Shown one piece after another: positions 267 to 39,536 of a stretch of 39,867 nt of DNA. Origin of the DNA: a virus; the IMG/VR virus record IMGVR_UViG_3300034418_005051, positions 1 through 39,867 of that record; one strand, written 5' to 3'. The notes beneath the pieces were generated by a model. It searched no databases. It saw only the letters and a list, made by a program, of their open reading frames with translations, and was not told the origin of the DNA. A program made the translations under genes and the position numbers. Numbering within the stretch: position 1 is the first letter of the stretch; the number at the start of each line of letters is the position of its first letter.

Positions 267-888
267 TGACTTGCTCCTCTGTGTAATCTCTTTCCCTGCG
301 TGGTCGTTTACCACCCAAGAAGTTTATCAGGTTATTCATAGCGCGGTTCACGCGCATACGCGCAGCGTCCTGACTGATAGATAATTCCTTTGCTACTACC
401 GCTATGTCAAAGTTGTCTGCGAAACGTAAGTAAATCAGGTTGTATTGTTCTTCAGGTAATTTCTCTAGTGCGTGCTGGATATCTGCCATCATAGCAAACC
501 AATTACCACCCTCAGCAGCAACCTTCTTCGTGCTACTGAAGCCTAAATCTACGAGTGATGGTGCTACTAAATCTCCGCGCATTACCGCTGGAAGTAGTAG
601 TTCTACCACCTCTCGATCGTAGTAGTATAAGTCATCAACCTTGTACCCGACCGCGTTAGCCTTCTCTTTCTGACAGTAATCCTTAGCAGCATTACGCAAC
701 GAGCGCGCTATGAGCTTCGTTGATTGCTTGCCGTCAAGTGCTTCCCACACCTTCACCTTGTTAGGGTGTTCCAAGAACCATACCCAAAGTTCCTGCCTTA
801 TATCTTCGACAGGAACCATGTAGAACTTACGAGAAAACTCATACGCAATAGAAGCAACAAGATTCTCATAATGTTCTGTTATTACCAC
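190..888 (-). CDS. Sigma-70-like / HTH DNA-binding protein
   Basis: A 232-aa protein probably acting as a sigma-like transcription factor. An N-terminal helical part (visible pieces include VEDIRQELWVWFLEHP) resembles sigma region 2. Around residues 150-200 there is a region-4-like helix-turn-helix: LEKLPEEQYNLIYLRF followed by ELSISQDAARMRVNRAM. The acidic C-terminal tail (about 35 residues) overlaps the next gene. A longer frame could start at TTG 912. I prefer GTG 886-888 because it overlaps the stop of the upstream gene by a few bases, as most neighbours do, and has GGGAGA about 9 bases upstream. It closes the early block, so it could redirect host polymerase to phage promoters. That role is inferred. 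Confidence 0.7.
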   Translation of the reverse strand: MVITEHYENLVASIAYEFSRKFYMVPVEDIRQELWVWFLEHPNKVKVWEALDGKQSTKLIARSLRNAAKDYCQKEKANAVGYKVDDLYYYDREVVELLLPAVMRGDLVAPSLVDLGFSSTKKVAAEGGNWFAMMADIQHALEKLPEEQYNLIYLRFADNFDIAVVAKELSISQDAARMRVNRAMNNLINFLGGKRPRRERDYTEEQVNEQQRDEGESIVRDDIEETDGADLD

Positions 889-1646
889 GCGTACACTTCT
901 CCCTCTACGCAAAAGGAACGACCAATAATTGGAACATTCACGGGTGTTACGTTCGATCGACGAACATACAATACCGTGAATCCTTGTTGCCAGTTAGCAG
1001 CACCTGTTGATAGGTAATCTGCTTTATTTAGATCCATTAAGTGACCTACTTCGACTCCGAAAAGTCTATTGGAGATTCGACCATTGTAACCGACGTGATA
1101 ATGTTGGATTCCTTGGCGATGAGTGTGTCCACATACGACAGATAGTCCGATACGTCTTGCAAGGTTAAGCGCAGTTCCTCCCGCAGTTTGTAAAAGACTT
1201 CCCTCATCTCCGTGGGCAAGAGCCCATCCGGGCGCAAATTGCCAGATTTTATTGTGATAGGTAATATCAAGTTCATCGTATCGGAGCAACGCTTCATACT
1301 CCAATTCGCGCAATCCTGCAAGTGCTGGAGCGTACTTGTCGATGTAGTTTCCGATTCTATCTCCATGATTACTCCTCATCACATGAAAAGGTTTATCACC
1401 TAATGCATTCTTGAAACCTTCCATAATATTAGATGTCTTATCAAGACCTGCCTGTAAAGTCTTTGAGTATTCTGCTGCTCGTCCCTTGTTCCATCGTGAT
1501 GGTTCAGGGCTATCAGCCTCATCACCTACGCAGTATACTTCATCAGGCTCGAAGTCCTCAATGAATTCTTGAAGCGTAGTGATGGCCCTGCCATCGTGAC
1601 TAGGTGCTTGAATATCAGAAAGAACTACTATTTTCTTCAGTTTCAT
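882..1646 (-). CDS. Calcineurin-like metallophosphoesterase
   Basis: A 254-aa two-metal phosphoesterase. The canonical ligand motifs appear in order: SDIQ (D11), GDEAD (D42), SNHGD (N93-H94), AHGD (H145) and GHTHR (H174, H176). Length and motif spacing match the stand-alone phosphoesterases common in phages, which act on nucleotides, nucleic acid ends or phosphoproteins. The substrate cannot be read from the sequence. It is translationally coupled: the start at 1646 overlaps the HNH stop by 4 bases. Its place among replication genes suggests a DNA or nucleotide substrate, but that is inference. Confidence 0.85.
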   Translation of the reverse strand: MKLKKIVVLSDIQAPSHDGRAITTLQEFIEDFEPDEVYCVGDEADSPEPSRWNKGRAAEYSKTLQAGLDKTSNIMEGFKNALGDKPFHVMRSNHGDRIGNYIDKYAPALAGLRELEYEALLRYDELDITYHNKIWQFAPGWALAHGDEGSLLQTAGGTALNLARRIGLSVVCGHTHRQGIQHYHVGYNGRISNRLFGVEVGHLMDLNKADYLSTGAANWQQGFTVLYVRRSNVTPVNVPIIGRSFCVEGEVYAW

Positions 1647-3805: not shown

Positions 3806-4231
3806 TTAGTACCAACCATTCCTTTGCCAAAAAGCCCAGGCACGCTCAGGCGTACCATAGCGGTGAACGATGTACTTCAGTCCTTTATTCACTTGATATT
3901 CAATTGTAGAGTTACGTGGTGTATTAAGTACCTGCGCTATTCCATACGCAGATGAGCGAGGATTCTTAGCCTTGTAGTTCCAGGCAGATTCCTTGCCCCA
4001 TAGTTTTGCGAGTGCAGACCATTGACGATCTCCATTTTTGAACATTTCATTCACCCGATAACGAGCGAATATCTTTGCTTTAGTCTTGTGATCGATCGGT
4101 TGGATTGCGAACAGTTGCTTGCACCCAACCTCTTGGTGTGTCGATTTCACTAACCAAGCACCCACAGCGTGGGGCAAGGTAGCCACAAAAAGTGCAATCG
4201 CGGATAGCATTGATACTGTTGTTAGTTTCAT
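3806..4231 (-). CDS. Secreted lytic transglycosylase-like protein
   Basis: A 141-aa protein with a signal peptide (MKLTTV, then hydrophobic LSAIALFVATLPHAVGA, cut near residue 25) and a short lysozyme-like SLT domain. LWGKESAWNYKAKNPRSSA contains the likely catalytic Glu81. AYGIAQ (95-100), NKGLKYIVHRYGTPERAW and the C-terminal FWQRNGWY complete the actinobacterial/phage transglycosylase pattern. The start follows GGAGGAAAG and overlaps the upstream stop as ATGA. It lies among early replication genes, far from the holin/endolysin pair, so it may act on the wall early or be displayed outside the cell rather than cause lysis. Confidence 0.8.
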   Translation of the reverse strand: MKLTTVSMLSAIALFVATLPHAVGAWLVKSTHQEVGCKQLFAIQPIDHKTKAKIFARYRVNEMFKNGDRQWSALAKLWGKESAWNYKAKNPRSSAYGIAQVLNTPRNSTIEYQVNKGLKYIVHRYGTPERAWAFWQRNGWY

Positions 4232-4431
4232 CTTTCCTCCGTTGGAGCGGTTGCTTGTGTTCCACAGTCAGCACACTCCATATCTAAGAAATACATCCCT
4301 ATCGTACCATCCTCATCGAATGTTACTTTAAGGTTCCATAAGAAACTACCACACACACATACCGTGGTTGGTTTACCACGTATATCCATCGCCCGAGTGT
4401 AGTCAGGACGTAACTCGGTTATGTCTTTCAC
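4228..4431 (-). CDS. Small zinc-ribbon hypothetical protein
   Basis: A 67-aa acidic protein with a split zinc ribbon: VCVCGSF (C-x-C) and, 20-odd residues on, CADCGT (C-x2-C). No other motif is visible. The frame is open back to TTG 4464, but GTG 4429-4431 forms a GTGA overlap with the stop of the proteasome-like gene, the coupling used throughout this operon, so I place the start there. Small zinc ribbons of this kind are common in actinophages without assigned function. Confidence 0.65.
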   Translation of the reverse strand: MKDITELRPDYTRAMDIRGKPTTVCVCGSFLWNLKVTFDEDGTIGMYFLDMECADCGTQATAPTEER

Positions 4432-4988
4432 TTGCTCTGCGTAACTATTTGTATAGGTAGGCAAGTGTTGATGTCAAGCCTACAGGAGATAGCAAGGGCT
4501 TTCTTCGCTATCAAAGTAGCAGCTTGAACTGACTTGATCTTCTTTGTATCCACCGAGTGGAGATACCCAAGAGCGAACGAGCCACCAGAGCCAGCAGCAT
4601 AATAACCTGACTCTGTACATAAGAAGGACATATCATCACCTATAGAAAACAATTTACCATTGAATCCTAATAAATATTGGAATGAAATTTCCTTCTTATC
4701 TTCCCCTTCTAAGTCAAAGCCATTAACCTTAAAGGCTTCAAGCATAGAGGGAATAATAGATTTACCCATGAATTGAATCTCATCACCTTGTTTGTAGACA
4801 GGTGGATTCCAGTTGTAAGTCAAGATATCTCCCGGACGAGCATCGCCTGAGATACCTAAAATATATTTACCAATGCGTATAATCTTGGGTGTCTTGGGAG
4901 AGATGATGCGCTGGTTATCTTCGGTTATTTGCGAATCGGCTGCCATGACTATAAAGTCTTTGCCTTGTATTCCGACTATTGTTGTCAC
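4428..4988 (-). CDS. Proteasome beta / HslV-like Ntn hydrolase
   Basis: A 186-aa protein with the look of a proteasome beta-type peptidase. It begins M-TTIVGIQGKDFIVMAADSQ. Removing Met exposes Thr2 as N-terminal nucleophile, and Asp18 then falls at proteasome position 17. SPKTPKIIRIGKYILGISGD supplies a Lys near position 33 (K35), and YYAAGSGGSFALGYL matches the SGG loop that holds the proteasome's active-site Ser. It is shorter than cellular 20S beta subunits (no propeptide) and close to HslV length. Start is GTG 4986-4988 with AGGGAG 7 bases upstream. No ATPase partner is encoded here. It could form its own ring, join or poison the host proteasome, or process phage proteins. Those roles are inference. 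Confidence 0.8.
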   Translation of the reverse strand: MTTIVGIQGKDFIVMAADSQITEDNQRIISPKTPKIIRIGKYILGISGDARPGDILTYNWNPPVYKQGDEIQFMGKSIIPSMLEAFKVNGFDLEGEDKKEISFQYLLGFNGKLFSIGDDMSFLCTESGYYAAGSGGSFALGYLHSVDTKKIKSVQAATLIAKKALAISCRLDINTCLPIQIVTQSK

Positions 4989-4999
4989 CAGCGCACTCC

Positions 5000-5785
5000 C
5001 TATACTCTCTCTACGTCCGATACGTTCATTACTTCAGGATTGAATTGGAGCCAAAACGCATCTTCCCCTGAAGCGTTTGCCTTACCGTAACGATTCTTTA
5101 CAGAGGCGACTGCCAAAAATCCTGGAGCATTTGAACCCACAGTCAGAATTAATGCTGGTAACTGAGCAACCATTCCCTGCAGCGCAGAGCGTGGTTGGCA
5201 CGGATTTCCAGGATATGACTCTTTCGTGTGGTGTAGTACTAGCACCGCAGCATTGGTGTCACGGGCTAGATATTTGAGTTCCTTAATGGTAGAACGCATG
5301 CCAGCGAATTCTTCTCCTGAATCGTTAGCAACATCCATTAAGTTATCGACAACGATGAGTGTAGGAGAGCATCCCCATAACTCCTCGAATGCCAATACTT
5401 CATTATCTAAATCAGCCAAAGTCGGGGCTGACTCAAAGGACCAAAAGATATGTCCTGATTGTTCGTTAATAATCTTTCGTGAGTTATCTACATCTTCAAT
5501 TAACATCTGCTCTGCTTCTGTTTGGTTACGTCCAGTAATCATAGACAACAGTCGCATAGCCATCGTGTGAGCATTAGTATCCGCGCTAACGTATAGCGTT
5601 GGGACTTTTGATCTCAACGCTATCGCTAGTGCAAGTGTTGATTTGCCAACACCAGGAGTGCCAGCAATCATGGAGACTTCTGCTCGGCGTATTACAACCT
5701 TGTTGGTATCAAAGGTACGGAAAACCGTAGGTAACGGCTCACCGCCAATGTCTTTGCTACCAACAGCACGAGCAAGAGTTCTCAT
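5000..5785 (-). CDS. DnaB/RecA-like ATPase, probable replicative helicase
   Basis: A 261-aa P-loop ATPase of the RecA/DnaB fold. Walker A GTPGVGKST is at 42-50, TLYVSADT at about 63-70 is the second strand, Walker B TLIVVDN is at 142-148, and VLVLHHTKES at 181-190 is the sensor strand. It lacks the N-terminal domain of full DnaB (about 450 aa), so it is a core-only phage helicase or a loader-like ATPase. It sits next to the SSB-like, RecB-like and primase genes, which supports a replication role. The best alternative is a RecA/KaiC-like recombination ATPase. Confidence 0.75.
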   Translation of the reverse strand: MRTLARAVGSKDIGGEPLPTVFRTFDTNKVVIRRAEVSMIAGTPGVGKSTLALAIALRSKVPTLYVSADTNAHTMAMRLLSMITGRNQTEAEQMLIEDVDNSRKIINEQSGHIFWSFESAPTLADLDNEVLAFEELWGCSPTLIVVDNLMDVANDSGEEFAGMRSTIKELKYLARDTNAAVLVLHHTKESYPGNPCQPRSALQGMVAQLPALILTVGSNAPGFLAVASVKNRYGKANASGEDAFWLQFNPEVMNVSDVERV

Positions 5786-24292: not shown

Positions 24293-27200
24293 TTAGTCCT
24301 TTGCTTTCATAGTTCCTGCAAATACACGATAAAACATTGGAGCGAATGCTGGATTCTCTAACATTAAACTGTCAGCAAGTTCTTGTAGTTGTGAACGTAA
24401 CTCGCTTGCATACCAGTGTGAACTGCCTAAATCAGGGTTTGCGGTTACGCGAGTTTCTTTTAGTAGTTCTATTGCTCTAGAATATTGTTCATAGAATTGT
24501 GCTGTTTCTTTGTATACAGGAGACATCTGAAATGCTTTATCCTGTAAAGCTTTAGCAACGTTAGCAATACGCTCATTGTCAGTACCAACATTAATAATAG
24601 ATGCTGGAGCAGCATCACCGAAACGCTTGTTAAGTTTGTTTATTTCACCTGCATACCAGACATCTGAGTATCCCATGGCAGCTTGCATCTCAGAAATCTG
24701 AGACTTAACCATCTTGTAAACAAGTTCTTCCGCAGCAGAAGATAGCTCTTCTGTGTTTAAAGGTTCACGACGTCCTGTTTTCTTTTGCCAAGCGTAGTAT
24801 GCTGTAGCACCTTCTCCACCAGGGAAAAAGAATGGAACGATATCACCGTTCTTAGTAGCATACTTTTCTGCTACATCAGGATGCATATTCAAAAATGTCC
24901 AAGCATCTTTAGTACCAGTAACAGTACGTGTAGAACCACCGAGAATAGCTAGCAGATTGCGCTCGCCAAACTCTGTTGAGAACTCATGAACTGCTGCAAA
25001 GTAATCACCAGGATGCTTACGGCTAATCTGATCCCATGCATTGTAAAGCATAGTCATGCTAGCAAAGTCAACCTTTTTGTTATTAGGAATCTTTGCAAAT
25101 ATTTCTTGAGAAGGTGTAGCTGGTGATATGCTCTGGAATAAGGCTGTTAGTAATCCAATACCACGAGACATACCCTCGGCATCCTTAAACAACTGATTTC
25201 TTGCGGTGTCGTCCATTAAAGGATTTTCGCCATATTGACCAGTAGAAGCTAGGTATGATGCCCAGTCTTTTACTCCACGCTCAACTGTTTTTTGATCGTT
25301 AAGAAGATAATAAAATGTTTTACGCAACCAAGCTGGAGCAAGAGACCCTACAGGATCTGTTATTTCTCCGAATGGCATTACTACATCACGTATAGTATTC
25401 CATACAGGTCCGAATGCTGATGACTTACCACTTGCCTGAAAGGCAAACTGTCCTACAGGACCAATACCGGGAACTCCTGGATTAACAGCACCAAAAACTA
25501 AGTTAAGTGACTGTACAGGAGCTGTAAGTTGTAGTGCCTGAGCAGAATCTATATTTCTACCTACTAAGCCTCCGATAAAACTTCCAGCAATTGGGTAACG
25601 GAAACGTTTTTCACCAAACTCATCTTCATAGATGAAGCCTTGTCCCTCGTCATACTTAACACCAGTTATGTCGTAAATAGCGCTTGAGCCTTCCTTTGTT
25701 AAGGAATTGTAAGCACGACCTAGTTTGTAAAAGTTTACTGGGTTAGAAACAAATAGTTGTCCCCATTTTTTAACGGTATTAAGGTGCGCCTGAATGAATG
25801 GGAATATAAGACGCATAGCCTGAGCAGACTGTAACTGCTTAGATGCATCATAAAATAATTCTTTGGTGTACTTAGCGCCTTGCTTAGAAGCCATTGAGTT
25901 AAGGTTAGCTAGGGTTATTCCACCCTCATGGACGTAATCATCTCCACGTCTCTTTAGTTCCTTCTCAATAATCTTGATAGTTTGGTGCTTCTTGCCCCAA
26001 GCCTTGCCATTCTTACGAAGTGGTGCTAAAGTTTTTATGGCAGAATCTTGAAGTTTCAATAAGTCATCAGTATCTAGCATTGTAGCATAACGGCCTACGT
26101 GGTCCCAATAAGCCATACGGAACTCAGGTCCAAAAGTAGATAAGTTTTCAAGTCTAGCATTTAGATCAAAGAACCAATCTACTGCTTTAGTAAGCATTTT
26201 AGGCTCACCATCCGCAAAACGCTTAGTGCGAGATAATAATACTGTGGATTCTGGCATGTCTTCTCGCTTGAAGAATGATGCTAACTGAGATTTGAAACCA
26301 ATCTCAAGATCATCCATCTCTACAACATTCTTGAGTTTAGCGTAATCTGGGATAGAAATCTCTGTTGTTTTGTTACCTTGAGTAACAGTTATTTTACCTT
26401 TAGCAAGGATCTCACGAATATACTCAGCCTTAGGTCCTTTACCACCAATAGACTGGATAGCGTATTCATAAGAACCAGTAGAGTTAATATCAAATAGATA
26501 TGTTCTTAAGTTATCTACGTTTATATTATCTTTTGAAAAAGGCTTGGTGATATCTTTTAATATGATTCTGTCAAAGTCAGATACTTTTACACCAGTTACT
26601 TCTTTAGAAGTACGAGCACCACGATGTATCTTTTCTAATATCTCAAGACCTTGTTTTCTGGTGGTAAGATAACTAATCAAATCATCTTGTAGTTCAGGTG
26701 TACGAGCGCGTGCTACAAGTGGCATTAGATCATCTTTGTTGAAACGCATAAGTGTTAATGCAAGGCCCTTGTAATAGGACTCGTGATTATTATTAACTAC
26801 TTCGTATATCTTACCTACGAAAGCAGTGCGAGGATCACCAGCACTGATACCGCGTTTCATGAATTGCAGATATTCATCTAAAGCATCTGTTACAAGCTTC
26901 TCGGTTATATCATCTTTGAAGTTATTGCCAAATATGTCATTTTGAGCTTTGCCGATACGAGCGGCAAGTGCCTGCATCTTTGTACCCTTAGGGTTGGCCA
27001 TGGCCATAGCTAAAAACTGAATTGGATGATTAAATATACTATCGTGTCCTGAGAAGAACATACGAAGTTGCATTTCACCAATATTGCGCATTGTGTAAGA
27101 TACACGGAATGCTAGCTGAGCTGTACGCCAGTAGTCACCTAATTGGTTTGCTGTTGTGGTTACAGCTTTAGCCTTACCATACAACGGTACATTTTTGTTA

Positions 27201-30103
27201 TAGGTATTGATAGCGTCAATAATAGGACGTGTATCTGGCAGACGAATAACATCATCTAGGAACTGGTGAGCGTAGTTAGCACCAGTCATAGCTAGTTCTT
27301 CACCATTGGTAAAAAGAAGTTTAGGGTCTGTTCCCTGAGCTAAGTTAGCAACATTATACTGACGTACAATAGCTTGCTCTTTACCAGCAAGTTTTAGAGC
27401 ATCATCTAGGACTTTAGCTAATTCAGTATCACCTTTACCAACTGTAGTAACAAGGTGTTTTTGCATCTTACGCATTCCGTCCATAATGACTTTAGCACGT
27501 GCTGTGTAATCTTTTTCACTGATAACTTTATTTATTACATCATCAATTAAATCTTGTGGTACTTTAGCTGTGGTAAACCAGTCATTTAGGCCACGTGATA
27601 ATCTATCCAAATCGTTCAAAGGCAGAATAGATGAACGTATGTATTGATTAGTTAGAACCTTTTCTGCTCTTTCAATAAACGATACAGCCTTCAAACCTAC
27701 AGGTTCAGCAAGCTTAATTAGTGGATTACTACTGTTTAGGGCTAGCTCAGTGCGTAGCAATAGGCTACGAGCAATCTGTGGATCACTCTCAGGAGAAGCT
27801 AAATGCCTCAGCATTACAGCAATAACGCCTTCTGCGGTGTTAGCCTTAGCTAGTTCATCAACAATTTCGACATCTAACTTGCGTCCGAATAGACGATCTA
27901 GACGCATTGTATTGGTCTCTTTAGCTACAATCTCTGCAACTGCAAGGAATCTTTTACCGAATAGATACCGCATGGCTTTGGTTGTATTTGCAGATAATCC
28001 ACCGAATAGTGAATCTGTCAGACCTACTTCACTAGAAAAGAACTCTCTAGCATAGCGAGTATCAGCAATTTTCATGTCTAAATCCATGACTTTAGCTATC
28101 CCAATATTATCAGGATCATTCAACATCATTTTAAGCAAATCAGGATCTTTGGCTGCATAATCGCGTAAAGTTTCAATATCCTTTAAGCGTTGTGCCATTC
28201 CTTCAGATTCTAACCTAGCATTATCAAGGGCTTGCTTACTACTTGATAGAGTATCTTCTGCTCTTTCGATAACACTATCTAACTTCAACATAGCGTTTGC
28301 AGCCATAGTTGGCTCTGCAGATTCAGCTAATACTTCGCTAATTTTAACCTTACGAGCAGCTACATTGTCTATATTAGTTAGAACTATGCCACCAGTATCA
28401 CCAAAGATTGAACGAATATTAGCAAATCCATCTACTTTGTAGATATCTGAAATCATATCCACGATAGTAGCCATCATTCGTTGGTCTACGCCACCTTCTT
28501 TAGCAGCAATAACTGAAATATCTTGTAACCATGTACCTAAAGGTTTAGCTACAGTATCTTCAAGCATAGAAATTGCGACAGAACTTACAGCTGTATTCTC
28601 AGTTCTTAGAGTATTAAAAGCTTCACGTGTAGGTGCTGGTAATGTACCGTCATCTGCTGCTTGTTTAATTCTTTTTAATAGTTCTGTACGACGCTTTAGT
28701 TCCTGTGACCAAGCTTTTTGTGATAAACTAGTCGTGTCATCAGATAAATCAAGTAACTTAGGAGCTTTGCCATAGTAAGAGGCAACAAATTCGTCATTAC
28801 CACGTGTCGCAAGTGCTATCGAGCCAGGTGCTTGTGGTAGTTCATCAAAAAATACTCCACCAGGAAAAGCTCCTGATGTATTATAGTAATCCGAAGATAA
28901 CTTAGATAGTGCATCAACAGTTTCTTTTTGCTTACCTGTGTTGATTCGTTCAAAAATGAACTCGCCAATGTTACGGTTATTGAGGGGCAAACCTCCTGGA
29001 CCTGCAAGGTTGGCAGCATTCTTAGTATCAGCAGCATATACTTTAGCCGCAGCAATATAATCTGCTTCAATGCGTGCTTGTTGTGCCTTCTGATATACCT
29101 GCTCAGCCTTGAGGTACTTGTTTTCCGCTTGACGAGTAACTTCCTTAGCAAGTCCGGAACGCTCTTTAATGAGCCTTCTTTCTTCCTTGGTAAGGCCAGC
29201 TGCCTCAGCTAAACGATTAGATTCTTTTTTCAGTTCTTCAGCAGCAGCAAGTTTAGCTTTCTTAAGTTCTTTTCCACCTTTACCAATTTTGGTAATAGCA
29301 CCAGGGCCTAACCAAATTGTAGGGTCTAAAGCTACGTTAAGTGTGGCATCAATAATGCCTGACATAACTTTATACTGCGTACTATTAGGATCTGAGCCTA
29401 CAGTTTTAAGTGCAGCACGTCCAAGAGTAAAAGATTTACCATTGATAAGTCCATAAGCACCCATAGCCTTGACTTGAGCCTTCTGTACTTTAGATTTCTC
29501 GTTAATAAAGAAACCAGAACCTGTATCTACTTTAGTAGGATTAGCTAAAAATGCCCGTCCCAGCTGACCAAGTTGTGTAGTTTCACCAACTAGTCCTAAA
29601 GGACTAAGGTTTTGTACAAATTGACTTAAATCTGGCTTGTCTTTTTGAGTTGCAAGTGCATAAGCATCACGTCCGACTGTGGTTACATACTCATAAGGCG
29701 AGCGAAGTGCAGCAAAAAGCGTACGACTTGTACCTTTGAATCCACCATATAACACATCTTTGATATCTGCTGCTAGTGATTTATCTTCATCTAGTGCAGA
29801 CTTGATATTTTTAGTGTTAATTAAATCTTGTTTTAATTGTGCTAGTCCGTCAACTGAAGCAATCTTACCAATACCAGGTGTATCTGGCTTCAAACCAAGC
29901 TTTACTGCAGACATAATGAAGTCTTTACTCTGGTTTGGATAAGAATTTACCCATGCATCAAAGTTCTGAAATTGATTAGGCGAAAGCATAGCCATCTCAG
30001 TTGAAATAACGCGATCAAGTTGAGACTGGACATTATCGAATATTCCAGTAACTTTTATACGTTTATTCTTCTCAGGATTCCATGCATCTAAAGGATTAGC
30101 CAC
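24293..30103 (-). CDS. Giant (1936 aa) putative ejection / internal virion protein
   Basis: A 1936-aa helical protein filling one seventh of the window. N-terminal MANPLDAWNPEKNKRIKVTG, a long helical/coiled section (about 280-350), and a region near 1315-1345 reading LSTFGPEFRMAYWDHVGRYA are visible. RLIFPFIQAHLNTVKKWGQL at about 1428-1448 follows. The last two motifs resemble the E-x-x-x-R...W and F-PF-x-A-x-N signatures of large polyvalent/internal phage proteins, from memory. No lytic or polymerase motif is visible. The position between portal and scaffold genes suggests a DNA-ejection protein, as in podoviruses. It could also carry unseen enzymatic parts. Confidence 0.6.
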   Translation of the reverse strand: MANPLDAWNPEKNKRIKVTGIFDNVQSQLDRVISTEMAMLSPNQFQNFDAWVNSYPNQSKDFIMSAVKLGLKPDTPGIGKIASVDGLAQLKQDLINTKNIKSALDEDKSLAADIKDVLYGGFKGTSRTLFAALRSPYEYVTTVGRDAYALATQKDKPDLSQFVQNLSPLGLVGETTQLGQLGRAFLANPTKVDTGSGFFINEKSKVQKAQVKAMGAYGLINGKSFTLGRAALKTVGSDPNSTQYKVMSGIIDATLNVALDPTIWLGPGAITKIGKGGKELKKAKLAAAEELKKESNRLAEAAGLTKEERRLIKERSGLAKEVTRQAENKYLKAEQVYQKAQQARIEADYIAAAKVYAADTKNAANLAGPGGLPLNNRNIGEFIFERINTGKQKETVDALSKLSSDYYNTSGAFPGGVFFDELPQAPGSIALATRGNDEFVASYYGKAPKLLDLSDDTTSLSQKAWSQELKRRTELLKRIKQAADDGTLPAPTREAFNTLRTENTAVSSVAISMLEDTVAKPLGTWLQDISVIAAKEGGVDQRMMATIVDMISDIYKVDGFANIRSIFGDTGGIVLTNIDNVAARKVKISEVLAESAEPTMAANAMLKLDSVIERAEDTLSSSKQALDNARLESEGMAQRLKDIETLRDYAAKDPDLLKMMLNDPDNIGIAKVMDLDMKIADTRYAREFFSSEVGLTDSLFGGLSANTTKAMRYLFGKRFLAVAEIVAKETNTMRLDRLFGRKLDVEIVDELAKANTAEGVIAVMLRHLASPESDPQIARSLLLRTELALNSSNPLIKLAEPVGLKAVSFIERAEKVLTNQYIRSSILPLNDLDRLSRGLNDWFTTAKVPQDLIDDVINKVISEKDYTARAKVIMDGMRKMQKHLVTTVGKGDTELAKVLDDALKLAGKEQAIVRQYNVANLAQGTDPKLLFTNGEELAMTGANYAHQFLDDVIRLPDTRPIIDAINTYNKNVPLYGKAKAVTTTANQLGDYWRTAQLAFRVSYTMRNIGEMQLRMFFSGHDSIFNHPIQFLAMAMANPKGTKMQALAARIGKAQNDIFGNNFKDDITEKLVTDALDEYLQFMKRGISAGDPRTAFVGKIYEVVNNNHESYYKGLALTLMRFNKDDLMPLVARARTPELQDDLISYLTTRKQGLEILEKIHRGARTSKEVTGVKVSDFDRIILKDITKPFSKDNINVDNLRTYLFDINSTGSYEYAIQSIGGKGPKAEYIREILAKGKITVTQGNKTTEISIPDYAKLKNVVEMDDLEIGFKSQLASFFKREDMPESTVLLSRTKRFADGEPKMLTKAVDWFFDLNARLENLSTFGPEFRMAYWDHVGRYATMLDTDDLLKLQDSAIKTLAPLRKNGKAWGKKHQTIKIIEKELKRRGDDYVHEGGITLANLNSMASKQGAKYTKELFYDASKQLQSAQAMRLIFPFIQAHLNTVKKWGQLFVSNPVNFYKLGRAYNSLTKEGSSAIYDITGVKYDEGQGFIYEDEFGEKRFRYPIAGSFIGGLVGRNIDSAQALQLTAPVQSLNLVFGAVNPGVPGIGPVGQFAFQASGKSSAFGPVWNTIRDVVMPFGEITDPVGSLAPAWLRKTFYYLLNDQKTVERGVKDWASYLASTGQYGENPLMDDTARNQLFKDAEGMSRGIGLLTALFQSISPATPSQEIFAKIPNNKKVDFASMTMLYNAWDQISRKHPGDYFAAVHEFSTEFGERNLLAILGGSTRTVTGTKDAWTFLNMHPDVAEKYATKNGDIVPFFFPGGEGATAYYAWQKKTGRREPLNTEELSSAAEELVYKMVKSQISEMQAAMGYSDVWYAGEINKLNKRFGDAAPASIINVGTDNERIANVAKALQDKAFQMSPVYKETAQFYEQYSRAIELLKETRVTANPDLGSSHWYASELRSQLQELADSLMLENPAFAPMFYRVFAGTMKAKD

Positions 30104-30519: not shown

Positions 30520-30527
30520 TTTAGATC

Positions 30528-30764
30528 CTATCCTTCGTACTTATCGAAATATAATTTTTCTTCTAGAGCATGTTCTAACATGCCACGATATTTTAATGGT
30601 GAACCAACACCATCACTCCAACCAAAGATAGCGAAACCTTCATCTGGATTCATCCACTCGGTAACTATGAACCACCCAGTCGGTATGTATCCATCAAGTT
30701 CTTTTCTTTGGGATAATTGACTTAAGAAATCATTAATTGGTTCTGCAAATTCATCCCCTGCCAT
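30528..30764 (-). CDS. Small acidic hypothetical protein after portal
   Basis: A 78-aa protein: MAGDEFAEPINDFLSQLSQR, then WFIVTEWMNPDEGFAIFGWS and a helical end. The aromatic beta-hairpin core (TGWFIVTEWMN, GFAIFGW) looks like a small folded domain. I do not recognise it. It begins 3 bases after the portal stop. Confidence 0.6.
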   Translation of the reverse strand: MAGDEFAEPINDFLSQLSQRKELDGYIPTGWFIVTEWMNPDEGFAIFGWSDGVGSPLKYRGMLEHALEEKLYFDKYEG

Positions 30765-30767
30765 TTA

Positions 30768-35749: not shown

Positions 35750-35938
35750 ATGTATCTATCCGACCTCGACATTGTTGCTATTTCCATAGCACTCGTGTCG
35801 TTAATGGCTCTCGTAATCACGAGTGCCGTTGCTAACGCAAGACTCACACGCCAGCGTGACGAGTGGCGTCGTGAAGCATTGAACCTTCAGCGAGTAATGG
35901 ACTCGTTGTCGCCCATCACACGAAAGGAAAACGCATGA
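35750..35938 (+). CDS. Small single-pass membrane protein
   Basis: A 62-aa protein: short N-terminus, one membrane helix (VAISIALVSLMALVITSAVA, residues 9-28) and a basic amphipathic C-terminal helix (RLTRQRDEWRREALNLQRVM). It is the first gene of the operon that carries the amidoligase, overlapping it by 4 bases. It may anchor a partner at the membrane or change the envelope. No family is recognised. Confidence 0.75.
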   Translation: MYLSDLDIVAISIALVSLMALVITSAVANARLTRQRDEWRREALNLQRVMDSLSPITRKENA

Positions 35939-37509
35939 CCAACTCATATCCACCCGACCTACCCCCCGAAATACACTTCTCGTGGGGTGTCACAGGTGTC
36001 GGCGCATGTGCCAGATGCCGAGATATTCGCACGCTCATAGTTCACTCTGCTCTTCACACGGCAGATGAGTGTGAGCCATTATGCTTAGAGTGCCTTCACT
36101 CGGCACTTACAACTTTCTGTTCAGACGCTCGCTCAAAGATGTGGGAGTTTGAACAAAACGGAGCGCGCATTGAAGATACTCCTGAGTATCAAGTGGCAAA
36201 GGCTACTTACGACACCTATTACGAGGTAATAGATGTGTTGATGAATAATCGCGCTCGTATCCAGCACACACGAGAGGAAGTCCTAGCACACGAACAAGGT
36301 TGTAAAGCCTGTGCGTGCTTCGGCTCTAACCTTGTTTTCGCTATATCGTATTATGACCACAGCATTACAGGTAGGGTTCACGAGAACTGTGCTAGTCGTT
36401 GCTCTTGTTGTGATAAGAACTACTATCGTCCATTTTCGCGTGGAGTTGGCGGTTATTTCGAACTAAATCGCGTAATGAGGGAACGAGGCGCTCTTTCACG
36501 AATATGCCAAGAGTGTTTTGATGAACTTCGCATAGAGGACTCACACATGCTGTGTGACTGTGGCAATTGGGATACAGAGGAACGCATGTTTGAAGCGTGG
36601 GATAATCTCTACTGCCGAGGGTGTTCTTCCAATATAGATGACTGCGACTATTGCGGTGAACTACGCTGGACAGATGGCGACCATACATGCGACGAAGAAA
36701 GTCGAGTTATCAAGAGTTATGACTTCGTGCCTAGCGGTGGCTTCGTGTTTCATGGTGATAGCCCACTTAATCACTATCTAGGGTTCGAACTCGAGGTCGA
36801 ACTACCGAGCGGTGATAGCCTCAAGCCTATCGCTTCACAGACAAATGACTTAATCGGTGAGCGTGGTTTTCTCAAGTATGACGGCTCGCTTGATAACGGC
36901 TTCGAGTTAGTCACCATGCCACACACACTTGAGGAATACATGAGCAAGTTCCCGTTCACGGCACTTGACGAACTCCGCGAGAGCGGTTTTCGCTCATGGG
37001 ATACCGATACATGTGGCTTCCATATCCATGTATCACGAGCCACATTCGGTATGCGCTTGAAGGATACAAAACCTACACAGGGTCGCAAAGACGCACACAT
37101 GCTCCGCTTTACGAAACTCATCTACGATAATCGTAGGCAAGTTAAGCGTATCGCAGGTAGAAGTTCCGATAGGTGGGCTTCGTTTGATGATGTAGGTCGT
37201 TTGACCGATAAAATCAAGACAGGTCATCAGGTAAATGGCAGATACTCCGCAGTAAATATCTCATCTAAGCGCACACTCGAGATCCGTGTGTTCAAGGGTT
37301 CTCTCAATGTGAGCCGAGTGAAGGCATACCTTCAGTTCGTTCACAGCACAGTCGAGTATACACGGGAGCTTCATGTAAGCCCTAATGATAACAACCTGAT
37401 GTGGCGTAGATACACGGGTTGGCTTCACAAGAACGAACAGCAGTATCCCGAGTTGGTATCCCTACTCGGCAACCTACCCGAAAGACGCTCTGATGAAGGG
37501 GGCAACTAG
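35935..37509 (+). CDS. Amidoligase (COOH-NH2 ligase) with N-terminal zinc knuckles
   Basis: A 524-aa protein. The C-terminal half has the glutamine-synthetase-like amidoligase plan: YLGFELEVEL (281-290), LKYDGSLDNGFELVTMPHT (313-331), TCGFHIHVSRATF (359-371) and RYSAVNISSKRTLEIRVFKG (436-455), giving metal/ATP-binding Glu, Asp, His and Arg residues. The N-terminal 250 residues contain about nine Cys pairs (e.g. CARC, CLEC, CKAC, CQEC, CDC, CRGC, CDYC), likely several zinc ribbons or knuckles. The family joins a carboxylate to an amine using ATP. The product here is unknown. The class II amidotransferase directly downstream should supply ammonia. The ribosome site is the CACACGAAAGG module. 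Confidence 0.85.
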   Translation: MTNSYPPDLPPEIHFSWGVTGVGACARCRDIRTLIVHSALHTADECEPLCLECLHSALTTFCSDARSKMWEFEQNGARIEDTPEYQVAKATYDTYYEVIDVLMNNRARIQHTREEVLAHEQGCKACACFGSNLVFAISYYDHSITGRVHENCASRCSCCDKNYYRPFSRGVGGYFELNRVMRERGALSRICQECFDELRIEDSHMLCDCGNWDTEERMFEAWDNLYCRGCSSNIDDCDYCGELRWTDGDHTCDEESRVIKSYDFVPSGGFVFHGDSPLNHYLGFELEVELPSGDSLKPIASQTNDLIGERGFLKYDGSLDNGFELVTMPHTLEEYMSKFPFTALDELRESGFRSWDTDTCGFHIHVSRATFGMRLKDTKPTQGRKDAHMLRFTKLIYDNRRQVKRIAGRSSDRWASFDDVGRLTDKIKTGHQVNGRYSAVNISSKRTLEIRVFKGSLNVSRVKAYLQFVHSTVEYTRELHVSPNDNNLMWRRYTGWLHKNEQQYPELVSLLGNLPERRSDEGGN

Positions 37510-37511
37510 TT

Positions 37512-38387
37512 ATGTGTATGTTATGTGTAATACCACCGAACACTATCCCATCACGGGATAAGTTAGAAAACTCTGCGCTCAACAACCCACATGGGTTCGG
37601 TTTCGCTATCGTTGTGCCTGAGGAAAATCGTATCATCTGCGAGCGTAGTATGAGCGCAGACGAAAGCATTAACCGCTTCCTTGAGTTGCGTGGTAAGTAT
37701 CAGACGGGCTATGCCATGTGGCACGCTCGTATTGCTACGAGTGGCAAGATAGATATATCTAACTGCCACCCGTTCCTGCTACCTGATAGCGAGCACCCAA
37801 ACACTACCTATGTAGGACACAATGGTATGCTTGATGTCTACGAAGCCAAAGACGAAGTGCGTAGTGACACACGCATATTCGTAGAGGACTTAATTCCTGC
37901 TCTTGGTGGCGTGACCGCGCTCGATAACATTCAAATATTCACCATGCTTGACGAGTTCACACGCGGATCAAAGGTGTGTATTCTTACAGTTCACCCAAAG
38001 GCTGAGTATCAGATGTATCTATTCCACGAGGAAGCAGGTCACACAGACGAGGACAAAGTGTGGTGGTCGAATAAGTCGTGCGAACTAGATACCAAAAGTC
38101 TTTACAACGGCTACTACGACTATGGCTACGCAGGAGCTTTCGTTAAAGACGGCAAGGAAGGCGTGGAAGCGTATTACAACTGGTATGTATGCCAAACATG
38201 TAAGCACGAGTTCGACTGGGAAACCGAGTGTCCTGATGACTACTGCCCCAAGTGCCGAACCTGCCTTATGTGTGAGTCAAGCGAGGCGGTGTGCTTCTGC
38301 TATCGCCCTGAGAGCAAAAAGAAAACAGACTATGACCGACCTCATAGGTCATACTACGCACCTGAAGGGGGGTGGGCTATATCATGA
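37512..38387 (+). CDS. Class II glutamine amidotransferase with C-terminal zinc ribbon
   Basis: A 291-aa Ntn hydrolase: MCMLCVIPPN with Cys2 as nucleophile, NNPHGFGFAIV (24-34), MWHARIATSGKIDISNCHPF (69-88) and YVGHNGMLDVY (100-110). All are standard class II GATase motifs (R-T/A-x-G, N-x-HPF, GHNG). The domain releases ammonia from glutamine. The C-terminus adds a Cys-rich part (CQTCKHEF, CPKCRTCLMC, CFC; 227-263), probably zinc-binding. It starts two bases after the amidoligase stop, so the two are almost certainly one functional pair. Confidence 0.9.
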   Translation: MCMLCVIPPNTIPSRDKLENSALNNPHGFGFAIVVPEENRIICERSMSADESINRFLELRGKYQTGYAMWHARIATSGKIDISNCHPFLLPDSEHPNTTYVGHNGMLDVYEAKDEVRSDTRIFVEDLIPALGGVTALDNIQIFTMLDEFTRGSKVCILTVHPKAEYQMYLFHEEAGHTDEDKVWWSNKSCELDTKSLYNGYYDYGYAGAFVKDGKEGVEAYYNWYVCQTCKHEFDWETECPDDYCPKCRTCLMCESSEAVCFCYRPESKKKTDYDRPHRSYYAPEGGWAIS

Positions 38388-39213: not shown

Positions 39214-39536
39214 AACTCGACCTACCTGTGTTCTCGAAACACCCTTCGTGTGCTGATGCTCTCGAACCCGACATGTGGTTTCCTGAGGAAAAGAGCGGTA
39301 AGTCTGGGCGTGGTTGGTCACACACGCCTAGCGCCGAGCTTGCGCGTGACATTTGTAGAGGTTGCGAAGCCTTTACTGAGTGTAAGGAATACGCGCTACA
39401 ATTCCAAGACCTTGCTGGCATTTGGGCAGACCAAGATCGCCACGAGCGTTATGAGGAACAGATAAAGCGTGGCATTACGCCACGCCCCGTATGGAATACG
39501 ATAGTCACGCAGAGTAGGAGGTTGCTAGATGAGTAA
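39210..39536 (+). CDS. WhiB-family Fe-S transcription factor
   Basis: A 108-aa WhiB-like protein: C14 in PSCADALEPDMWF, C49, C52 and C58 in ICRGCEAFTECKEYAL, and LAGIWADQDR where WhiB proteins have the G-[IV]-W-G-G turn. The four Cys hold a 4Fe-4S cluster. The C-terminal part is basic and likely contacts DNA. WhiB proteins are restricted to actinobacteria and their phages, so this is the best host marker in the window. Phage copies can repress host whiB genes or set infection timing. Confidence 0.9.
   Translation: MKLDLPVFSKHPSCADALEPDMWFPEEKSGKSGRGWSHTPSAELARDICRGCEAFTECKEYALQFQDLAGIWADQDRHERYEEQIKRGITPRPVWNTIVTQSRRLLDE

Follow-up and report, generated by a model that had tools for sequence, protein, structure and literature searches.

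The window analysed here, a whole phage record of 39.9 kb, contains a gene coding for a small proteasome-like peptidase (Table 1; residues are numbered from Met1), and the question it raises is what a phage does with a protein of this kind. The plus strand over the same interval (4428-4988) is stop-rich and closed as a reading frame. Between the upstream stop codon and the GTG start lie 15 codons with no ATG, GTG or TTG among them, and Met-Thr-Thr is therefore the sole possible N-terminus; Thr2 comes right after this start codon, so that the peptidase has no propeptide, as a sequence-only reading of this DNA had proposed. Start codons among homologues are ATG (63), TTG (32) and GTG (27), each directly before Thr2. 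The Shine-Dalgarno-like sequence overlaps the stop codon of the helicase gene, making translational coupling of the two genes possible.

Membership in the proteasome family is indicated by matches to Pfam PF00227 (E=1.9e-11; 44.4 bits against a gathering score of 22.4) and to PHROG 1040, 'peptidase HslV family' (E=3.9e-25). These two matches, the residues that are invariant among 88 homologues and the low dN/dS (see below) argue that the resemblance is not due to chance, and the ORF is confirmed as a real one encoding a proteasome-family N-terminal-threonine hydrolase. The earlier assignment had been staked beforehand on an Ntn fold, and an AlphaFold2 model built from 35 natural sequences (pLDDT 89.9, pTM 0.86) does have the alpha-beta-beta-alpha Ntn arrangement, with helices H1-H4 (residues 50-59, 70-88, 136-145 and 154-171; H2 spans 70-88) around the sheets. 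Foldseek searches with this model return BPH and HslV as the top solved structures (E ~1e-11 to 1e-10), VIA-align gives Z scores of 18-20 over 164-174 residues against 20S beta, BPH and HslV, with the three not clearly separated, and a sequence-profile search of the PDB also has HslV and BPH as its best matches. The protein falls well short of the HslV equivalog cut-off (TIGR03692; 29.9 bits vs 157.75) and far under that for archaeal beta subunits, and the bacterial 20S beta (PrcB) model TIGR03690 is absent from its matches; it is thus a relative within the family and not HslV or PrcB. Hallmarks of 20S beta are likewise missing, there being neither propeptide nor alpha subunit, and the record has a single PF00227 gene.

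The catalytic residues previously picked out by eye (Thr2, Asp18, Lys35 and the serine of the SGG loop) hold in Met-numbering, with the loop serine being Ser134 of GSGG, equivalent to proteasome Ser129; Gly48 and Asp172/Thr175 can be added to the set. Relatives in IMG/VR are numerous, with 53 loci recovered by a single-protein query and at least 580 stretches by an alignment query. Thr2, whose conservation had also been named in advance as decisive, is invariant in 88 distinct full-length homologues, together with Thr3, Asp18, Lys35, Gly48, Asp49, Arg51 and Asp172. One peptidase subtype in the portal slot has Asn/Cys at the equivalents of Asp172/Thr175 and keeps the Thr, Asp, Lys, Gly and Ser. 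Pairwise comparisons within the window clade, in the unsaturated range, give a dN/dS of ~0.07-0.1 (dN 0.016-0.136, dS 0.18-1.45), substitution ratios that show strong purifying selection on the gene. The reading frame is broken in a few copies (L053, L054 and, through an internal TGA, the L215 copy in record G418); all three are in partial metagenomic contigs, and may reflect either assembly error or decay.

Table 1. Locations of the peptidase gene, its predicted catalytic codons and other features of the window.
Feature	Position	Strand	Remarks
Proteasome-like Ntn (N-terminal threonine) peptidase gene	4428..4988	-	186 aa, GTG start
Thr2 codon	4983..4985	-	Predicted nucleophile, becoming Thr1 when Met is removed; invariant in 88 distinct homologues
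Asp18 codon	4935..4937	-	= proteasome Asp17; invariant in 88 homologues
Lys35 codon	4884..4886	-	= proteasome Lys33; invariant in 88 homologues
Gly48 codon	4845..4847	-	= Gly47, oxyanion hole; invariant in 88 homologues
Ser134 codon in GSGG	4587..4589	-	= Ser129; Ser in 83/88, Thr in 5/88
Asp172 to Thr175 codons	4464..4475	-	= Asp166 and Ser169; in 88 sequences D172 invariant, T175 Thr/Ser
Shine-Dalgarno-like GGGAG	4996..5000	-	Read in the sequence; 7 nt upstream of peptidase start, overlaps helicase stop codon
DnaB-like helicase gene	5000..5785	-	Directly upstream of peptidase; PHROG 243 E=4e-73; Walker A scan
78-aa Cys-rich ORF	4228..4464	-	Directly downstream of peptidase; neighbour in most relatives
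Transglycosylase-like (SLT) gene	3806..4231	-	Downstream
Portal-adjacent slot	30520..30767	-	Peptidase site in E7 and sister phages; in the window a small ORF only, by eye like the 84-aa gene of E7
WhiB-family gene	39237..39449	+	Actinophage marker; PF02467 E=3.5e-11

The terminase, portal and major capsid proteins (MCPs) are 57, 53 and 61% identical to those of phages LanE43-AprE7 (E7) and AprF5 (F5), both isolated with 'Ca. Planktophila' as host (PMC10202952). GC content is 44.4% in the window and 44.8% in E7, and a WhiB gene was found in the window as well as in each of the 12 further records tested. The resemblance of the head proteins to E7/F5 and the presence of WhiB mark this as a 'Ca. 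Nanopelagicales'-type actinophage, in agreement with the initial assignment to actinophages, and judging by these relatives its host is probably a tiny freshwater actinobacterium of the Nanopelagicales. As proxies for such hosts, 20 small (1.2-1.6 Mb) rhodopsin-bearing genomes were picked among class-level relatives of a mycobacterial genome; their size, their GC (40-51% in sampled stretches) and the rhodopsin are as expected for the Planktophila host group.

The peptidase gene is found at three loci. In the window clade (locus A) the order is DnaB-like helicase, peptidase, 78-aa ORF and SLT gene, in the largest clade (locus B) it is peptidase, gp49-like gene and DnaB-like helicase, and in E7 and the closest relatives of the window by head genes (locus C) it is portal, peptidase and a 138-aa gene, with an 84-aa gene before the latter in E7. 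The sister phages G408, G410 and G412 all have the peptidase behind the portal gene and none behind the helicase, the reverse of the window. The replication-gene context noted at the outset therefore applies to the window phage but is not a constant of the gene, as the copy in its closest relatives adjoins the portal gene.

Each of 12 near-complete genomes (the window, E7, G398-G404, G408, G410 and G412) has one copy of the peptidase gene, some of these records having been read to within 2 kb of their end, and G409 and G411 have one match each; E7 and the MCP-selected genomes were chosen independently of the peptidase, and G398-G404 and the window by means of it. The backbones of G408, G410 and G412 are close to that of the window (terminase 80-82%, capsid 80-84% and helicase 85-87% identical), but the window peptidase is only 32-35% identical to the alleles of these sisters and of E7 vs 52-60% to clade-B alleles. 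Since many clade-B backbone genes are only ~40-50% identical to those of the window, this points to horizontal transfer of the window allele. Within a single slot, the peptidases of G410 and G412 are 34% identical, the lowest value among the shared genes compared (portal 89%, MCP 94%, helicase 91% and scaffold 83%), and those of G408 and G410 are 91% identical. Low identity between alleles could in part come from fast evolution. The gene is kept once per genome with its core active site intact, yet is relocated and exchanged, which argues for one function that is independent of location and probably host-facing; the overall pattern suggests a peptidase that is required, repeatedly exchanged, and probably host-directed and stand-alone.

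A metallophosphoesterase gene in the window (882-1646, minus strand) is 96-98% identical among the sisters and 46-47% identical between them and the window, so that it too has seemingly been exchanged. An amidoligase gene (PF12224) lies beside a class-II glutamine amidotransferase-like gene (PF13230, itself of Ntn-type fold) at 35935-38387 on the plus strand, and both diverge fast between sister phages (35-48% identical to the window).

One alternative is that the peptidase is a head-maturation (prohead) protease, which would cut the scaffold or the capsid protein while heads are being assembled. In E7/F5 and in the closest relatives of the window the gene comes immediately after the portal gene, a slot used by other phage proteases, and every near-complete genome examined in the lineage has it. 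There are, however, several features that this role does not accommodate well. First, the alignment of the MCPs from the window, from E7 and from Streptomyces phage FlowerPower begins at residue 1, and a delta domain at the N-terminus is absent. Second, FlowerPower has the same head type with no match to the peptidase family, and no Streptomyces phage of that head type was matched in tblastn. Third, the gene is part of the replication operon in the window and in the largest clade. Finally, the sisters with 94% identical capsids and 83% identical scaffolds have the 34% identical peptidases described above. A head-maturation role is thus unlikely: an N-terminal domain that could be cleaved off is not obvious in the capsid protein, and no match to the family was obtained in FlowerPower. 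A 1936-aa ORF with no Pfam or PHROG match is located in the window (24293-30103, minus strand) with the 138-aa gene on one side and the capsid module on the other, and similarly large ORFs are at the same place in E7 (1764 aa) and FlowerPower.

Proteasome-family rings usually have ATPase partners, but the sequence-only reading had seen none for this peptidase, and this is true of the 39.9-kb record: no AAA+, unfoldase or HslU gene was found in it, and in a Walker A scan the DnaB-like helicase is the only convincing P-loop protein. The giant 1936-aa ORF was considered as a partner ATPase and rejected, having no family match and a GKS that is chance-like, and so was the 78-aa Cys-rich ORF as a dedicated partner, being transcribed divergently in the largest clade and separate in E7. 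Sequence and model show that the gene encodes an Ntn hydrolase of the proteasome family whose catalytic set is complete, with no propeptide and no unfoldase of phage origin. Instead, ClpX, ClpC or an ARC-like ATPase of the host might serve as the unfoldase, giving an ATP-dependent protease that redirects host turnover; ClpX is present in 16/16 of the host proxies tested, and the proxies encode larger AAA+ proteins as well. We consider this improbable. ClpX and ClpC dock on ClpP through loops, and these loops are not known to fit rings of the HslV type. Moreover, no partner gene travels with the peptidase, and pull-downs of BPH contained no ATPase (PMC5777263).

It is still less probable that the protein is a highly specific processing enzyme or transpeptidase, similar to connectase, which belongs to the same family and is a monomeric protein ligase. 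Allele swapping and the absence of an unfoldase would fit a narrow substrate, and connectase provides a family precedent (PMC8665760), but H1 and H2, the first helix pair, are missing in connectase and present in the model, which is also without a long insertion between early strands over the active site.

Whether the likely hosts have a proteasome for the peptidase to act upon was addressed in the proxy genomes. PF00227 is matched in 0/20 of these, whereas it is matched in the controls (two mycobacteria and 10/14 named genomes), both mycobacteria having adjacent PF00227 gene pairs (PrcB/PrcA-like). A Pup-ATPase (Mpa/ARC) above cut-off is absent from 18/20 proxies; the other two, G531 and G772, have an Mpa/ARC-like gene and no match to PF00227, and may be cases of a Pup-ATPase that has no accompanying proteasome. 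A profile of the phage peptidase family, run without a positive control, had no match in the 20 proxies. Because PF00227 fails to match the homologue in phage DSL-LC01, its negatives exclude 20S and HslV but not every divergent homologue. We found no literature on a proteasome in Nanopelagicales. A cellular origin of the peptidase was sought and rejected: a single marginal match, itself partial, turned up among 396 genomes of the phylum, and a search of genome contigs gave two mycobacterial loci only, 25-27% identical. The proposal that the phage protein takes the place of a host 20S proteasome or HslUV, joins it or blocks (poisons) it finds support in the fold and catalytic residues common to 20S beta and HslV, but is very improbable because the 20 proxies have no PF00227 gene, and the missing alpha subunit and the scores far under the curated HslV and 20S-beta cut-offs also stand against it. 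Rather, the peptidase would supply a kind of protease that is absent from the likely hosts.

With a head-maturation role less likely and a 20S-directed role unlikely, we favor a stand-alone ring peptidase that lacks a dedicated unfoldase and acts on a host target, a reading that we hold to be somewhat probable, with ring, activity and target all conjectural. Host methionine aminopeptidase would strip Met1 to expose the threonine nucleophile, and subunits would assemble into a homo-oligomeric ring with inward-facing active sites, as in BPH or HslV. Such a ring, with no ATPase dedicated to it, could act on proteins that are unfolded, short or specifically recognised, its target being a host or host-defence protein and not a phage structural protein. 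A host-side target is suggested since a single copy is kept while very divergent alleles with intact cores swap, across three loci, with the head genes unchanged. Some observations count against a stand-alone, host-directed peptidase: the portal-adjacent gene in E7/F5 and the sisters also fits a late role, one portal-slot subtype is without the Asp166/Ser169 equivalents, and a few copies have broken frames. More tentatively, phages of the most abundant freshwater actinobacteria may need one stand-alone, unfoldase-free proteasome-like protease in hosts lacking such an enzyme, divergent active alleles of which are exchanged between loci, and which degrades a host takeover or defence target in an arms race.

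In this lineage the function of phage proteasome homologues can be put to the test. A copy, in the form of a single small ORF, is carried by two Planktophila phages that have been isolated, there is no background of proteasome-family genes in the likely hosts, and classical proteasome inhibitors are a direct probe of activity. What the peptidase contributes can be isolated in near-identical phage pairs with different alleles, such as G410/G412.

Phage proteasome homologues are already known as a kind, to which the window peptidase adds. Fuchs, Alva and Lupas (2021) described the phage-borne homologues PPH, AAH and CPH, with AAH present in phages, none of them Actinobacteria-specific (PMC8665760), homologues have already been modelled for uncultured and Gordonia phages, and HslV-like genes without HslU also occur in a Salmonella jumbo phage (PMC7823757). 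As far as the literature searched shows, locus switching, allele exchange and a proteasome-free host setting have not been described. In common with PPH, AAH, CPH and PHROG 1040, the window protein is a tailed-phage proteasome-like peptidase with no AAA+ partner and no propeptide. It is not a PPH as defined by Fuchs et al. because helix H2 is present (186 aa with H2, vs ~140 aa without it in PPH), and it is 25-27% identical to a chromosomal mycobacterial homologue that is possibly AAH. A chromosomal mycobacterial proteasome-like protein (L057, 7890-8699, plus strand) has an AADSQITE motif in common with the phage family; its gene lies beside P450-like and MmpL-like genes, and the genome also has a PrcB/PrcA-like pair.

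HslV (ClpQ) has the same MTTIV start, GSGG loop and compact subunit, but the window peptidase scores ~30 bits against the equivalog cut-off of 157.75 and has no HslU gene beside it. BPH is a tetradecameric double ring that binds epoxomicin, for which no partner unfoldase has been found and which is proposed to act without a dedicated one (PMC5777263). The structures from Thiobacillus denitrificans (5ovs, 5ovt) are the top Foldseek matches, neither protein has a partner unfoldase, and the profile alignment is full-length and includes the 'PP' of the H1-H2 loop; identity is ~17-22%, however, and BPH is chromosomal whereas the window peptidase is phage-borne. The actinophage homologues in DSL-LC01 (OQ999401; WJZ48484.1, annotated as an ATP-dependent protease subunit) and E7/F5 (OX376640, OX376641) are ~32-37% identical with the same core catalytic residues, and differ in location: in the 129-kb Actinomycetia phage DSL-LC01 the copy is next to whiB, and that of E7 is behind the portal gene where that of the window is behind the helicase.
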